This document shows, piece by piece, positions 9,361 to 29,069 of a stretch of DNA of 33,918 nucleotides (position 1 is its first letter; each line of letters begins with the position of its first letter). The DNA lies in IMG/VR virus record IMGVR_UViG_3300044522_000724, positions 1-33,918 of that record; one strand, given 5' to 3'. The translations under genes and the position numbers were made by a program. The DNA comes from a virus. The notes below the pieces were generated by a model. That model worked only from the letters and a program-made list of their open reading frames with translations. It was not told where the DNA came from and did not search any database.

Positions 9361-9396
9361 ATGATGTTAAATCACGCACAATATGCAATTAATTAA
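9361..9396 (+). CDS. Possible 11-aa leader peptide
   Basis: ATG-ATG-TTAAATCAC opens MMLNHAQYAIN and stops inside the macrodomain gene in another frame. The same bases begin the RadA-like gene (MLLNHEHVEF), so this is a copied gene start that no longer continues. It may serve as a leaderless leader peptide coupled to the gene at 9383. Confidence 0.3.
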   Translation: MMLNHAQYAIN

Positions 9397-9853
9397 TAAA
9401 AATATCTTCGACGGTGAATGGCATGGCATGGTTCATTGCTGTAATCTTTATCATACTTTCGGCGCAGGAATAGCCAAACAAATTAAAATCAAATATCCTG
9501 AAGCTTATAAAGCTGATTGTGAATCGACACATGGAGACAAACTCAAGTTAGGGTTTTTCACATATTCAGATGAAGAAGAGAATAAAACAATTTATAATCT
9601 CTATGGTCAGATTGGAATTGGCAATAATGGAAACCCATTAAAACGAAATTGTCAATACGATTTTATCCATGATGGAATCTGGAGGATTTGTGAATTTATT
9701 CTTGATTCCAAAGACGATAAGCCTTATTGTTTAGCTATACCACACGGTATGGGATGTGGACTTGCAGGAGGAGATTTTAAAATTGTATATGCTATTTTAG
9801 AAAGTATAGAATCTCATTTCGCAGACATTCACTTTGTTATTTATAAACTTTAA
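9383..9853 (+). CDS. Macrodomain protein, 156 aa
   Basis: Macrodomain landmarks are present: MVHCCNLYHTFGAGIAKQIKIKYPEAY (the ADP-ribose loop with the GAGIAK turn), IYNLYGQ and AIPHGMGCGLAGGDF. Such proteins bind or hydrolyse ADP-ribose, ADP-ribose-1''-phosphate or ADP-ribosylated targets. In a phage it could reverse ADP-ribosylation-based defence or process NAD metabolites (inference). It is a stand-alone domain of normal length. Confidence 0.88.
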   Translation: MQLINKNIFDGEWHGMVHCCNLYHTFGAGIAKQIKIKYPEAYKADCESTHGDKLKLGFFTYSDEEENKTIYNLYGQIGIGNNGNPLKRNCQYDFIHDGIWRICEFILDSKDDKPYCLAIPHGMGCGLAGGDFKIVYAILESIESHFADIHFVIYKL

Positions 9854-11762: not shown

Positions 11763-12095
11763 ATGCAATACGAACAACTAAAAGAAAAGATTGTGCAATG
11801 GGGCAAAGATAGGAATATTTTTGAATTTTCCACATCAATCAAACAGCTTCATAAGACTCAAGAAGAATTGGATGAAACCATGAATGCTCTTGTGGCTTTT
11901 GCAGATGCAAAAACAGAAAAAGAAAAGCAGGAAGCAATGGCAGAGGTGATTGATGGTATTGGCGATATGGGAGTCACTCTTGTGATGCTTTGCCACAAAG
12001 TCGATGTTGATTTTGTGGAATGCCTTGCCAGCGCATACGATGTCATTAAGGATCGCAAGGGAGTTATGCGTGATGGTTTATTCTGTAAAAAATGA
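11763..12095 (+). CDS. MazG-like nucleotide pyrophosphohydrolase, 110 aa
   Basis: The all-alpha NTP-PPase core is visible: QEELDETMNAL (E-E-x-x-E metal ligands), then EVIDGIGDMGVTLVML (E-x-x-D ligands) and the closing AYDVIKDRKG. These enzymes hydrolyse (d)NTPs to monophosphates; in phages they may lower alarmones or recycle nucleotides. Its TGA overlaps the Mom-like start, placing it in a nucleotide and base-modification operon with Mom-like and ThyX. Confidence 0.85.
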   Translation: MQYEQLKEKIVQWGKDRNIFEFSTSIKQLHKTQEELDETMNALVAFADAKTEKEKQEAMAEVIDGIGDMGVTLVMLCHKVDVDFVECLASAYDVIKDRKGVMRDGLFCKK

Positions 12096-12781
12096 TGATT
12101 GTCAAAAGAATTGATAAATCTATAGCTGATTTAATCATATCAAACAAACACTACTCTAAGAGGCTTGGTATTTTTTGGGAAGGCTTTGGCCTTTTTAACG
12201 ATAACAAACTTATTGGAGTGTGTTGCTTCGGCCAACCATCAGCACCTATTCAAAAATATGCATTTAAAGATAGGAATTTTAGGCTTTATGAATTGACCAG
12301 ATTAGTTGTAGATAACGATGTAAAAAACGCCGCATCATTTTTGATTAGCCAATCTACTAAAATGCTTAAAGAGCGGTTCTGTGCTATTATAAGCTATGCA
12401 GATTCAGCGCATGGACACAGTGGTGTAGTTTATCAAGCGACAAACTGGTTGTATACTGGCTCTACAGTGTCTCATGACTGCCTTTATTTGGTTGATGGAG
12501 TGGCGACCCACCCAATGACCCTTAGAGATAAGCTAGGCATTACTAAGCCAGCAATTTGGGCGAAAGAAAATAATATACAAAAAATAAAGCCAATGCCAAA
12601 GCACAGATATTTCTTTTTTGTTGGTTCAAAAAAACAAAAGAAACAAATGAAAACTTCATTAAATTATGAAATCATTTCAGACTATCCTAAATCTGAAAAA
12701 AAATACTACAATAATGGAGAATTTCCTTGCTCTTTCTACGAAAATCAATACAATTTAAATAACAAATATTATGAAAGCTGA
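12092..12781 (+). CDS. Mom-like DNA modification protein, 229 aa
   Basis: The GNAT-like core shows the Mom family pattern: NKHYSKRLG near the N-terminus, LIGVCCFGQPS, YELTRLVVDN, IISYADSAHGHSGVVYQATNWLYTG. Mu Mom converts adenine to a carbamoylmethyl form that blocks host restriction. This homologue likely modifies phage DNA bases; its exact chemistry is unknown. It is overlapped by ThyX by 11 bp. Confidence 0.8.
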   Translation: MMIVKRIDKSIADLIISNKHYSKRLGIFWEGFGLFNDNKLIGVCCFGQPSAPIQKYAFKDRNFRLYELTRLVVDNDVKNAASFLISQSTKMLKERFCAIISYADSAHGHSGVVYQATNWLYTGSTVSHDCLYLVDGVATHPMTLRDKLGITKPAIWAKENNIQKIKPMPKHRYFFFVGSKKQKKQMKTSLNYEIISDYPKSEKKYYNNGEFPCSFYENQYNLNNKYYES

Positions 12782-22333: not shown

Positions 22334-22615
22334 ATGAAAATGACAATAGAAAAAATAAATGATATCATCAAAGACATCTTAAATGAATATGATGATCTTC
22401 ATCCTCTAACTGAATTGGTAGAACATGATAATATTTCATACTTATCAATCCATTATTGGAACTCAGACTCTGATAAAATGAAAGGCTTTATTCTTAAAGA
22501 AAGAATTAAAAATCTTGTACAAGTATATGGTGAATGTGATTTGGTAAAAGAAACAAACGGAAATACATCTGCTACACATTTTGATGTTTATAAATTAGTT
22601 GTTAATGGCAATTAA
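22334..22615 (+). CDS. Hypothetical protein, 93 aa
   Basis: Alternating helix and strand (IEKINDIIKDILNEYDDLHPLTELVEHDNISYLSIHYW...). No recognised motif. Overlaps the deaminase start. Confidence 0.65.
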   Translation: MKMTIEKINDIIKDILNEYDDLHPLTELVEHDNISYLSIHYWNSDSDKMKGFILKERIKNLVQVYGECDLVKETNGNTSATHFDVYKLVVNGN

Positions 22616-23006
22616 TTTCAAAAGATTAGAAGAAATTACAAGAGCATTAAAACCTACAAAACAAACTGGTAAGTGTTTTCACACTACGTTTGCTTTCAAA
22701 GGAAATAAAATGCTCGCCATTGGATGTAACAATTACAACAAACTTCATCCTCATCATAAATTTGGTGTGTATGAACCAACAAAAGATTTTAATTCAAATT
22801 ATACAGCAGGTATTCATTCTGAAATTTCATGTTTACTTAAATTAGGTATTGAAGACTGTAACGATATAATTTTTGTTAATATTAGAATCGACAACAATGA
22901 TAATCCAGCAATTTCAAAACCTTGTGCTAATTGTGAATGTATCCTTGATCAAATAGGACACAGAAAGATTTGGTTCTTTAATGGAGAAAAATATATTAAT
23001 AAGTGA
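22605..23006 (+). CDS. Cytidine/dCMP deaminase-like protein, 133 aa
   Basis: The zinc site is visible as IHSEISCL (H-S-E in place of H-A-E) and KPCANCECIL (PCxxC). The fold and length fit the cytidine deaminase superfamily. Deamination of a cytosine nucleotide or nucleoside to the uracil form would feed ThyX. Substrate uncertain. The in-frame ATG at 22599 is less likely. Confidence 0.8.
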   Translation: MAINFKRLEEITRALKPTKQTGKCFHTTFAFKGNKMLAIGCNNYNKLHPHHKFGVYEPTKDFNSNYTAGIHSEISCLLKLGIEDCNDIIFVNIRIDNNDNPAISKPCANCECILDQIGHRKIWFFNGEKYINK

Positions 23007-23014
23007 ATATAACT

Positions 23015-23161
23015 ATGGATGCTTTAACATTTTATTTGAAAACCGTATGCATACTACACACTATCGGTTGTGTTTATTCAATTTATCATAAAAAGTGGAT
23101 TGAAATATTTTGGGGTATGCTTTTTACAATTTGGCCTTTATATATTTTGTGGCAAAATTAA
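23015..23161 (+). CDS. Small two-helix membrane protein, 48 aa
   Basis: MDALTFYLKTVCILHTIGCVYSIYHKKWIEIFWGMLFTIWPLYILWQN has two hydrophobic segments around a basic turn. It lies between the deaminase and the RNA island. Unrecognised. Confidence 0.6.
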   Translation: MDALTFYLKTVCILHTIGCVYSIYHKKWIEIFWGMLFTIWPLYILWQN

Positions 23162-23168
23162 ATTTAAT

Positions 23169-23196
23169 TTGACAAGCAAGATAAATATGATATGAT
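23169..23196 (+). promoter_or_regulatory. Consensus sigma70 promoter of the RNA island
   Basis: TTGACA (23169-23174), 16-nt spacer, TATGAT (23191-23196). This is the best -35/-10 pair in the window and is unlike the AAAAACTA promoters. It probably drives the tRNA/tmRNA transcript. Confidence 0.75.
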
Positions 23197-23200
23197 TCTT

Positions 23201-23274
23201 GCATCACTTCAATTGATTCAGTCGATTCGGTTAAAGTGATGGTTGATTCGAAAGCGAATCAATAATCAATGTTC
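23201..23274 (+). ncRNA. Structured leader of the tRNA/tmRNA transcript
   Basis: CATCACTT pairs with AAGTGATG about 25 nt later, and TTGATTCG-AAAG-CGAATCAA makes an 8-bp tetraloop hairpin. No T-run follows, so a processing or stabilising role is more likely than termination. Confidence 0.5.
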
Positions 23275-23299
23275 TTTGATATTTTTAAACATTTTTAAT

Positions 23300-23376
23300 A
23301 GCGGGTAGGACAAGATGGTTAGTCGAGTGTCTCATAAGCACTATTCTGGGGGATTCGAGCGCCCCACCTGCAACCA
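23300..23376 (+). tRNA. tRNA with CAU anticodon, initiator-like
   Basis: Cloverleaf: acceptor AGCGGGT/ACCTGCA, D-arm GAC...GTC, anticodon loop CTCATAA (CAT at 23333-23335), T-arm GGGGA-TTCGAGC-GCCCC, encoded CCA. It has A1-A72 (no Watson-Crick pair) and A11-T24, both hallmarks of bacterial initiator tRNA. The GGG/CCC anticodon-stem triplets of initiators are missing, so Met or Ile2 elongator identity is not excluded. Confidence 0.75.
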
Positions 23377-23384
23377 ATTTCAGT

Positions 23385-23765
23385 GGGCGCGTTCTGGTTT
23401 CGACTGTATGAATAAGCATTTAACTAGCATGTAGAGGTTGATCAGTTGGCCTCTTAAAAAGCTGATCAAAAAAATATAAACGGCAACAATATTGTTAACG
23501 CTGTGCGTAGTTTCGTTAATCGCAGTTTCGCCCCACAAGGCGAACTTGCTTTAGCGGCCTAAGCAAATACGCCAAGAGATAAACCTGCTCTGCTCTTGGA
23601 TACAAAACAGGTGATAAAACAGTTTGCATTCTGTCTAATGCGATGGTGGAGGATGAATCAATTCGTCCCTAAGAGTAGTTCACTTAATGAACTAAAATAT
23701 AAGCATGTTTGAAGGTTGATGTAAATTAATATAGGACAGGAGTTCGACTCTCCTCGCGTCCACCA
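23385..23765 (+). ncRNA. ssrA: Phage-encoded tmRNA
   Basis: The 5' GGGCGCG pairs with 3' CGCGTCC before ACCA, with a G3-U70 wobble, the alanine identity element. The D-like TTCTGGTTTCGACT start and the GACAGGAGTTCGACTCTCCTC T-arm are typical. An in-frame tag ORF runs from GGC 23482 to TAA 23560: 26 codons beginning GNNIVNAVRS and ending ELALAA. The product with SmpB would release stalled ribosomes and tag the peptide for proteolysis. CCA is encoded. Confidence 0.93.
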
Positions 23766-23769
23766 ATTT

Positions 23770-23869
23770 TAATACATAGTGTAATGGCAGCACACCCCAA
23801 GCAAAGGGTTTCTTATCCAATAGGATAGGCAAATATGCCGTAGTGACAGTTCGATTCTGTATGTATTAT
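23770..23869 (+). tRNA. Aberrant tRNA-Cys(GCA)-like RNA, copy 1
   Basis: Acceptor TAATACA/TGTATTA, T8 A9, D-arm GTG...CAC, loop AAGCAAA with GCA at 23801-23803, T-arm ending TTCGATT. U73 and GCA suggest cysteine identity. U33 is replaced by A, and the variable region is about 34 nt with two hairpins (TATCC-AATA-GGATA and GGCA-AATA-TGCC). CCA is not encoded (TTCA). Same 100-nt size as copy 2; covarying stems show the shape is selected. Confidence 0.6.
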
Positions 23870-24162: not shown

Positions 24163-24262
24163 CAATGTATAGTGTAGTGGTAGCACGCCCCAAGCAAAGG
24201 GTTTCTTGTCCGATAGGATAGGCGACAACGCCGAGGCGATGGTTCGATTCCATCTACATTGT
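24163..24262 (+). tRNA. Aberrant tRNA-Cys(GCA)-like RNA, copy 2
   Basis: Acceptor CAATGTA/TACATTG, T8 A9, D-arm GTG-TAGTGGTAG-CAC, loop AAGCAAA (GCA at 24194-24196), T-arm GATGG-TTCGATT-CCATC, U73, TTCA tail. Variable region with hairpins TCC-GATA-GGA and GGCG-ACAA-CGCC. Arms differ from copy 1 by compensatory changes while the core around the anticodon is identical. Confidence 0.6.
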
Positions 24263-25926: not shown

Positions 25927-25932
25927 ACATTT

Positions 25933-26520
25933 TTGCGGTCATTGAGGGATATTCGTCACTAAGACGTTTGTGCAAGGTAGTCAACATAAAACGCACGATT
26001 CAGAAATGGGTTAATGCAGTTGATAGAAATCGAGTCTTTCGAGGCGATTTTCGGTTGGGAACACATTGCACGATATAGCGACCTGAGCCGCAAAACCATT
26101 TCCAATTGCCTGACTGTCAGCGGCTATACCTGATAAAGTAGTGCGCAGCAGGTCAGGAATTGGTCAACTTTACGAGAGGGATCATACGGAGATCGCTAGG
26201 CCCATAGTCTAGAGAGGAGGTTAAATTCCTCCCCCTCGTAATTCGTATTCATACGCGATAAAGTATGACGTTGCTAGGAGCGGTTCCCTAGATAGTGCCA
26301 GTCCTGCATAACGCATTGAGAGTGCATACTCTATGGACAAACATTTTCTATCGCGGTTTTGATCGCCCGAAGTATTCAGAGAAAACAGACTGGAAAATGA
26401 GTGTAGCTACGCCGCGCGTGGTCAAACTCTCCAGCGAGTTAGTACTTGTAGAAAAGTGAAGAGGGATCAATGAAAAGTGAGAGTCTGCAAAATGACACCA
26501 CACCTCTTCAGCGATAGATT
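25933..26520 (+). ncRNA. Giant structured RNA B with embedded tRNA-like element
   Basis: About 590 nt with dense pairing: CGTC-ACTAA-GACG; GTGC/GCAC; AAATCG/CGATTT; a 12-bp stem CCAATT-CCTGAC (26102-26114, one bulge) with GTCAGG-AATTGG (26152-26163); AGCCGC (26086-26091) with GCGGCT (26120-26125), which would be a pseudoknot; CTAGG/CCTAG; the shared AGTGCCAGTCC module; a 3' domain closed by TCTATCGC/GCGATAGA (26347-26354, 26511-26518) holding GAAGAGG/CCTCTTC. Position beside tRNAs and an internal tRNA recall GOLLD-type phage RNAs; unverified. Confidence 0.6.
26172..26240 (+). tRNA. Degenerate tRNA-like element, CAU loop
   Basis: Acceptor ACGAGAG/CCCTCGT (one mismatch), D-arm GATC-ATACGGA-GATC, anticodon arm CTAGG-CCCATAG-TCTAG (CAT at 26203-26205), T-arm GGAGG-TTAAATT-CCTCC. 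C replaces U33, the T-loop lacks the usual C56, and no CCA is encoded. Probably a structural part of RNA B, not a decoding tRNA. Confidence 0.5.
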
Positions 26521-26569: not shown

Positions 26570-26843
26570 TCCGACTTAGCTCAGCGGCAGAGCAGATGAC
26601 TGTTGTAATGGCAGCTTAAAGTAGAAATACTTTTTGAAAAACCGATCAAATTCGGGGAACGCTTTAAAATGCCAATCCCGAGCGAAGCCTTGAAAGAGGA
26701 ACGTGTAGAGACTTAACGGTCGGTGTCTTAACAGGTAATGCTGAAGATAATGAGAAAGTCCAGACCACAAACCGAAAGGGTAACTAAAGTTATAGTGGTA
26801 AGTAATCATCGGGTCCGTGGTTCGATCCCACGAGTCGGAGCCA
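26570..26843 (+). tRNA. tRNA-Asn(GUU) interrupted by a group I intron
   Basis: Exons 26570-26603 and 26803-26843 join to give TCCGACT/AGTCGGA, T8 A9, D-arm GCTC...GAGC, anticodon arm GATGA-CTGTTAA-TCATC, T-arm CGTGG-TTCGATC-CCACG, G73 and CCA. The joint lies between G34-side bases in the anticodon loop. Perfect restoration of the arm after removal supports splicing. Confidence 0.9.
26604..26802 (+). mobile_element. Group I intron (about 199 nt) in tRNA-Asn
   Basis: Exon 1 ends CTGU, which pairs with GCAG just inside the intron, with the U-G wobble at the splice site (P1). The intron ends in G (26802). GAGAAAGTCCAGACC near 26750 fits the R/S (P7) region. No ORF inside; a GIY-YIG gene lies 380 bp downstream. 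Compact, probably self-splicing. Confidence 0.82.
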
Positions 26844-27917: not shown

Positions 27918-28550
27918 ATGATTAAGATCAACAAAGCATTAATTCCAAAGCAAGATTTTTATGTTGCTGTAAGTGGTGGTGTAGATTCAATTGCTTGTTT
28001 GCATTTGCTATCAAGACTATACAAAGATAAAGTATATGCTTGTCACTTTAATCATAACTTTCAACCAATCAATGCAAAGATGCAATCATCAGTTGAAAGA
28101 TTCTGTGATCAACACAACATCAAATTAACAGTTGCTAAAAGACAAAGCGATGATACAATCAAAAGCAACATTGAAGATGTTCTCAGAAAACAAAGACTTA
28201 AATTCTTTTCCAGTTTAAACAAAGATATAATCTTATGCCATCACTTAAACGATGCAGTTGAGTCATACTTGATGAACACACTAAAAGGTTGTCCAGAATA
28301 TATTCCTATTCCAATCATCACAAAGTTCCATGATAACAACTTCAACATAATTCGTCCCTTTCTGAAAACTAAGAAGAAAGACATAGAATCATATGTAATC
28401 AATAACAATCTATATGATTTTGTTGTTGAAGATCCTACGAATAATGATAATAAATACAGAAGAAATCTTATCAGAAATTCAATTCTTCCAAGTCTTGATA
28501 AATTTGGTTTGGAAAAGGTTGTTCTCAAAAAATTCTATTGCATTAGTTAA
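27918..28550 (+). CDS. tilS: TilS-like tRNA(Ile)-lysidine synthetase, 210 aa
   Basis: PP-loop SGGVDS (residues 19-24), CHFNHNF, LCHHLNDAVESYLMN, FNIIRPFL and VVEDPTNNDNKYRRNLIRNSILP are the TilS catalytic-domain landmarks. The enzyme joins lysine to C34 of tRNA-Ile(CAU) so that it reads AUA and is charged with Ile. The C-terminal tRNA-binding domains of cellular TilS are missing, so it is a minimal form. Three CAU tRNAs or tRNA-like elements lie in the same island. Confidence 0.85.
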   Translation: MIKINKALIPKQDFYVAVSGGVDSIACLHLLSRLYKDKVYACHFNHNFQPINAKMQSSVERFCDQHNIKLTVAKRQSDDTIKSNIEDVLRKQRLKFFSSLNKDIILCHHLNDAVESYLMNTLKGCPEYIPIPIITKFHDNNFNIIRPFLKTKKKDIESYVINNNLYDFVVEDPTNNDNKYRRNLIRNSILPSLDKFGLEKVVLKKFYCIS

Positions 28551-28976: not shown

Positions 28977-29069
28977 GCGGGAGTGACCGGAATTGGTTAA
29001 CGGCCCCGATTCATAATCGGGTATGGATATGAAAGTCCTTTGTGGGTTCGAGTCCCTCCTCCCGTACCA
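28977..29069 (+). tRNA. Class II tRNA with CAU anticodon
   Basis: GCGGGAG/CTCCCGT acceptor (G1-U72), D-arm ACCG...CGG, anticodon arm CCCGA-TTCATAA-TCGGG (CAT), about 20-nt variable arm (TATGGATATGAAAGTCCTTT), T-arm GTGGG-TTCGAGT-CCCTC, ACCA. A Met or Ile2 tRNA should have a short variable loop; this body is Leu/Ser-like. Possible TilS substrate (AUA decoding) or a Leu-type tRNA with a changed anticodon. Confidence 0.85.

Follow-up and report, generated by a model that had tools for sequence, protein, structure and literature searches.

tmRNA genes are known from bacteriophages as well as from bacteria. A 2025 tmRNA database holds 79 unique bacteriophage sequences (PMC11915505), and tmRNAs and SmpB are carried by some huge phages (PMC7162821). 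The mRNA-like region measured 48 to 126 nt across 274 surveyed tmRNAs, and one-chain cyanobacterial tmRNAs have two small tandem pseudoknots in the pseudoknot 4 region (PMC1168896). The 883 known bacterial intron-form tmRNAs have T-loop position 7 as their main known intron site (PMC11915505). Here, we describe a tmRNA gene in a 33,918-base IMG/VR virus record, the whole of which was analysed and is referred to as the window. This tmRNA is real and conserved, and it belongs to a phage tmRNA family that has been little described.

Identification of the tmRNA gene

ARAGORN called one tmRNA in the window, at 23385-23765 on the plus strand, with the tag GNNIVNAVRSFVNRSFAPQGELALAA. The Rfam model RF00023 (gathering score 47) matched the same coordinates end to end (positions 1-374 of 374; 135.2 bits, E-value 4.9e-53). 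The acceptor stem, GGGCGCG/CGCGUCC, contains G3-U70 and is followed by the discriminator A and an encoded CCA, and the T-arm (AGGAG-UUCGACU-CUCCU) is intact. A preliminary description, made from the sequence alone, had proposed a full tmRNA with exactly these parts and a tag ending in ELALAA; both programs agree with it, the covariance search being a check that it had suggested. The gene has the one-piece order and is uninterrupted and intron-free. A permuted (two-piece) tmRNA was ruled out by this order and by the score of RF04321 (28 bits, gathering score 47). The features of the locus are as follows.

23301..23376, +: tRNA with a CAU anticodon just upstream of the tmRNA (sequence; sister loci L003-L009)
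23385..23765, +: tmRNA gene, one-piece, no intron (ARAGORN, Rfam RF00023, covariation in relatives)
23385..23391, +: 5' strand of the acceptor stem, GGGCGCG, holding G3 of G3-U70 (sequence; covariation)
23417..23431, +: helix 2, 5' strand (Rfam, structure in relatives, covariation)
23434..23469, +: pseudoknot 1, GAGG/CCUC and UUGAUCAG/CUGAUCAA (covariation, relatives)
23482..23562, +: tag reading frame, from resume codon GGC to UAA (ARAGORN, tag comparison)
23546..23566, +: helix 5, UUGCUU/AAGCAA, whose loop holds the stop codon; support in relatives is weak
23572..23612, +: pseudoknot 2, CCAAGAG/CUCUUGG and ACCUG/CAGGU (covariation, relatives)
23619..23641, +: pseudoknot 3, ACAG/CUGU and GCAUU/AAUGC (covariation, relatives)
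23651..23693, +: pseudoknot 4 region, with the hairpin GGAUGA/UCGUCC followed by a small pseudoknot, AAG/CUU and AGUUCA/UGAACU (hand assignment in relatives)
23704..23721, +: helix 2, 3' strand (Rfam, structure in relatives, covariation)
23738..23765, +: T-arm, 3' acceptor strand CGCGUCC, discriminator A and encoded CCA (sequence, Rfam, covariation)

Conservation in related phages

Seventeen related loci were reached via the rIIB-like protein. Whole-record searches detected a tmRNA above the cut-off in 10 of 18 related records, and DNA patterns found more. Sister phages carry it at the same place in the tRNA cluster, with 82-88% DNA identity from 22334 to 23749.

We aligned eight distinct homologues (the window, L030, L031, L048, L052, L056, L058, and L049; alignment A3), with the intron described below removed from L030 and L031, and scored pairing against a structure of 78 pairs including pseudoknots. 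Standard pairs occupied 86.2% of the proposed pair cells. Changes on both sides were seen for 26 of the 78 pairs, compared to 2-7 with slid partners and 17 ± 2 after shuffling, and the covariation score was 0.298 versus 0.04-0.075 for slid partners. Taken together, the double changes and the share of standard pairs, set against these controls, exclude chance. Support was strong for the acceptor stem (double changes in four of its seven pairs), the T-arm and pseudoknots 1 and 2, good for pseudoknot 3 and weak for helix 5. G3-U70 was present in all seven aligned sequences with letters at these positions; the L052 stem, read directly, is GGGCCTA/TAGGTCC.

The second part of the pseudoknot 4 region was not resolved by the automatic alignment. 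By hand, a hairpin of the GGAU/GUCC kind could be assigned in seven of the eight homologues and the small pseudoknot in all eight, with a few mismatched pairs. Pseudoknot folding, which had been named beforehand as a point on which the identification could fail, is thus backed by covariation for pseudoknots 1-3 and by hand assignment for the pseudoknot 4 region. The D- and T-loops of L052 are degenerate, so that decay of the RNA may be under way in one relative at least.

Length and divergence of the tag

Tag length was 22 residues in L048, L052, L056, and L058, 23 in L049, 26 in the window and the intron-bearing sisters, and 29 in L179 and L192; the tags of Streptomyces phage Jay2Jay and Bacillus phage G have 11 and 13 residues. 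A more distant phage tmRNA was found at 1501-1823 of L029. ARAGORN gives it a tag of 25 residues, which may instead be 35 residues long and contain RSLTGT twice (ANLNVSVMTGALAGTSRSLTGTKTRSLTGTFALAA) if the aligned GCA is its resume codon. Given the range of 22-29 residues in related phages, the two shorter phage tags and the survey of 274 tmRNAs, a 26-residue tag, though long, is nothing exceptional, and its length is a trait of the family.

The frame is open in all relatives: its start and ALAA-type end are kept, and the middle differs between them in both sequence and length. Compared to the nearest sister, the tag of the window has nine base differences (pN 0.12, pS 0.10), a number at which this is a weak test. 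The amino acid changes fall at residues 3, 10, 11, 12, and 15; over residues 16-26 the two tags are identical (FAPQGELALAA). Our reading of these sequences is that the tag is probably constrained at its start and end, with a free middle; nine changes give a selected middle no support. The preliminary description had pointed out an unusually long tag with a repeated RSF. The length does stand out against textbook tags but is normal for the phage family, and the repeat, present in the window, is missing from the nearest sister, where RSF..RSF reads RGI..RVF. A functional RSF repeat was therefore rejected. Net tag charge ranges from +1 to +7 in the phage family versus -2 for the E. coli tag.

Group I intron in the T-loop of sister tmRNAs

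The tmRNA genes of seven sister contigs share the same 210-nt insert, located after ...GGAGTTCAACT and before CTCCTCGCGTCCACCA. The insert matches the group I intron model RF00028 with 43.2 bits (E-value 5.4e-10), slightly short of the model's gathering score, 50. It is preceded by U and ends in G, and its excision restores the T-arm. ARAGORN misses these tmRNAs because the T-loop is interrupted; the spliced RNA is read as a tmRNA with the tag GNRIVNAVRGIANRVFAPQGELALAA. By our own count along the sequence, the insertion site would correspond to T-loop position 7. In the literature searched, we found no report of a T-loop intron in a phage tmRNA, and we make no claim of a first case. With such introns present in phages, phages could be one route for their movement.

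An open frame directly downstream of the intron-bearing tmRNA in L034 (approximately 2150-2731) looks like a putative homing endonuclease. The sister L033 is without this frame, and tRNA-Tyr follows its tmRNA at once.

Genome context and other RNAs

Genes around the tmRNA include those for rIIA-like, rIIB-like, Mom, ThyX, and UvdE proteins and a sulfotransferase. With rIIA/rIIB, Mom, and ThyX genes nearby in a virus record, the earlier claim that the tmRNA is phage-encoded holds. A terminase search for classification gave one match. The Mom-type DNA modification protein lies at 12092-12781 (Pfam E-value 1.4e-38; PHROG 1384). A small protein encoded at 9383-9853 weakly resembles DarG, the DNA ADP-ribosyl glycohydrolase antitoxin (NF048014, E-value 2.9e-6, well under the cut-off) and is possibly a counter-defence macrodomain.

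Upstream of the RNA cluster, a promoter-like site was seen at 23169..23196 (+; TTGACA-16-TATGAT, TG before the second hexamer, 11/12). Promoter-like sites are no commoner in this region than in its shuffles, so the site is a lead only. The tRNA at 23301..23376 was missed by ARAGORN in the window and called as tRNA-Met in sister phages.

A further group I intron, 199 nt long (26604-26802), splits tRNA-Asn(GTT) at 26570-26843 inside the anticodon. It matches RF00028 with 68.6 bits (E-value 2.5e-17) and was missed by the whole-window Rfam scan; ARAGORN reads the tRNA only after intron removal. L179 has the same split arrangement at ~92% identity.

A tRNA-like RNA of ~100 nt is present in two copies in the window (23770-23869 and 24163-24262) and also in L034 (2818-2917). 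It has an acceptor stem as well as a D-arm and a T-arm, which are separated by three hairpins. The anticodon presented by its first loop, AAGCAAA, would be GCA (Cys), with A33 replacing U33, and U73 is seemingly present in 12 of 13 variants. A pattern search found this RNA in 18 viral contigs, its acceptor stem covaries, and blastn matched it to no named phage. Other phage tRNAs sharing its D-arm have ordinary interiors. A second enlarged tRNA-like kind was observed in L122, L128, L153, L165, and L098 (TCACCAGAATAGTG...TTCTGGT, interior GCTTAAAAATCGG...). Long non-coding stretches at 25930-26310 have 80-93% DNA identity in L179, L192, and L003, and one portion resembles a further tRNA-like element that lacks annotation.

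A TilS-type tRNA-lysidine synthase domain is encoded at 27918-28550 (TIGR02432, 134.8 bits, above the cut-off), ~430 bases from a CAU-anticodon tRNA at 28977-29069. This is possibly a tRNA-Ile reading AUA, a codon used at 14.8 per 1000 in the ORFs counted.

Function and alternative explanations

The simplest reading is that of an ordinary phage tmRNA using host factors, and we consider it probable that this genuine tmRNA keeps trans-translation going in infection via host SmpB, AlaRS, and proteases. G3-U70 and the acceptor stem are kept, and host AlaRS would charge the RNA with alanine. Host SmpB and EF-Tu would then deliver it to ribosomes stalled on broken messages; the ribosome would move to the GGC resume codon, add Ala and the 26 residues and stop at UAA, yielding a product predicted to end in AGNNIVNAVRSFVNRSFAPQGELALAA. 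Judging from known degrons, the ...ELALAA end would direct the tagged peptide to ClpXP-type host proteases. The tag's middle would act as a loosely constrained spacer, its length inherited within the phage family. The plainest benefit would be that rescue is kept running while messages are broken during infection. A search for a phage SmpB (PF01668), which the preliminary description had suggested, gave no match in the window and ten related phage records; ten control bacteria gave matches. Every one of these phage records is a fragment, and an SmpB gene may be located beyond their ends.

The long tag may have a special role. The phage tmRNA could compete with that of the host and re-tag proteins, which host adaptors would miss or other proteases act upon, a redirection favouring the phage. 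Longer, net basic tags would lack adaptor sites of the E. coli type. However, the tag still ends in ...ELALAA or a similar sequence, and the middle, the expected place for a new signal, shows no amino acid constraint and does not keep the RSF repeat. Such redirection thus appears unlikely. The override or redirection of host trans-translation envisaged by the preliminary description gained no support, as the long tags are shared, their middle is unconstrained, the ELALAA end is ordinary and no SmpB was found. Doubtful to the same degree is a fuller version, in which a distinct phage lineage, without a close bacterial source in the samples searched and with long basic tags, degradable but unseen by host adaptors, would take over ribosome rescue and change what becomes of tagged proteins, the T-loops of the sisters having later been colonised by group I introns. 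Why phages carry tmRNA could be tested by swapping tags.

The RNA might alternatively act as a decoy inhibiting host tmRNA, for example by titrating SmpB, a role suggested for the tRNA-like-domain-only RNA of mycobacteriophage DS6A (PMC4131195, PMC11915505). By analogy with that precedent a decoy is conceivable but improbable, since the messenger domain is conserved: a decoy could do without a messenger part, the four pseudoknot regions, a resume codon, a stop and a degron-like end, and every one of these is kept. Least probable, in our view, is a functionless passive copy of a bacterial tmRNA, carried as cargo or left from an integration site. Integration commonly takes place at tmRNA genes, and no full tmRNA was obtained from most viral loci that contain the tmRNA 14-mer. 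The gene of the window, however, is full-length within a tRNA cluster and kept in sisters, with compensatory changes across divergent relatives, and a close bacterial copy is absent from the 694 sampled Bacteroidota and Pseudomonadota genomes.

Comparison with known tmRNAs

BLAST against 296 Bacteroidota and 398 Pseudomonadota genomes gave short pieces only, and a search of a genome collection with a conserved 20-base pattern gave seven matches, none a tmRNA. Among 50,697 named phages, no close DNA match was found beyond tRNAs.

One more family of uncultivated phages is added here to the known tmRNA carriers, and the comparative set separates the conserved parts of a phage tag (the start and the ALAA-type end) from the part that drifts (the middle). 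As in Bxz1-type mycobacteriophages, Bacillus phage G, and Jay2Jay, the tmRNA lies in a phage tRNA cluster; its tag of 26 residues is longer than the 11 and 13 of Jay2Jay and phage G. A possible resemblance to cyanobacterial tmRNAs lies in their NNIV-type tags. The hairpin and small pseudoknot in the pseudoknot 4 region of the window family resemble the tandem pk4a/pk4b of one-chain cyanobacterial tmRNAs (PMC1168896). Bacterial intron-form tmRNAs share their main known intron site with the seven sister contigs, but there the intron is phage-borne, and it is absent from the tmRNA of the window. With the bacterial one-piece tmRNA (RF00023), the tmRNA of the window shares the full-length match, the alanine identity pair, the tag frame, and pseudoknots 1-3; it differs in the make-up of its pseudoknot 4 region, in being phage-encoded and in its long tag.
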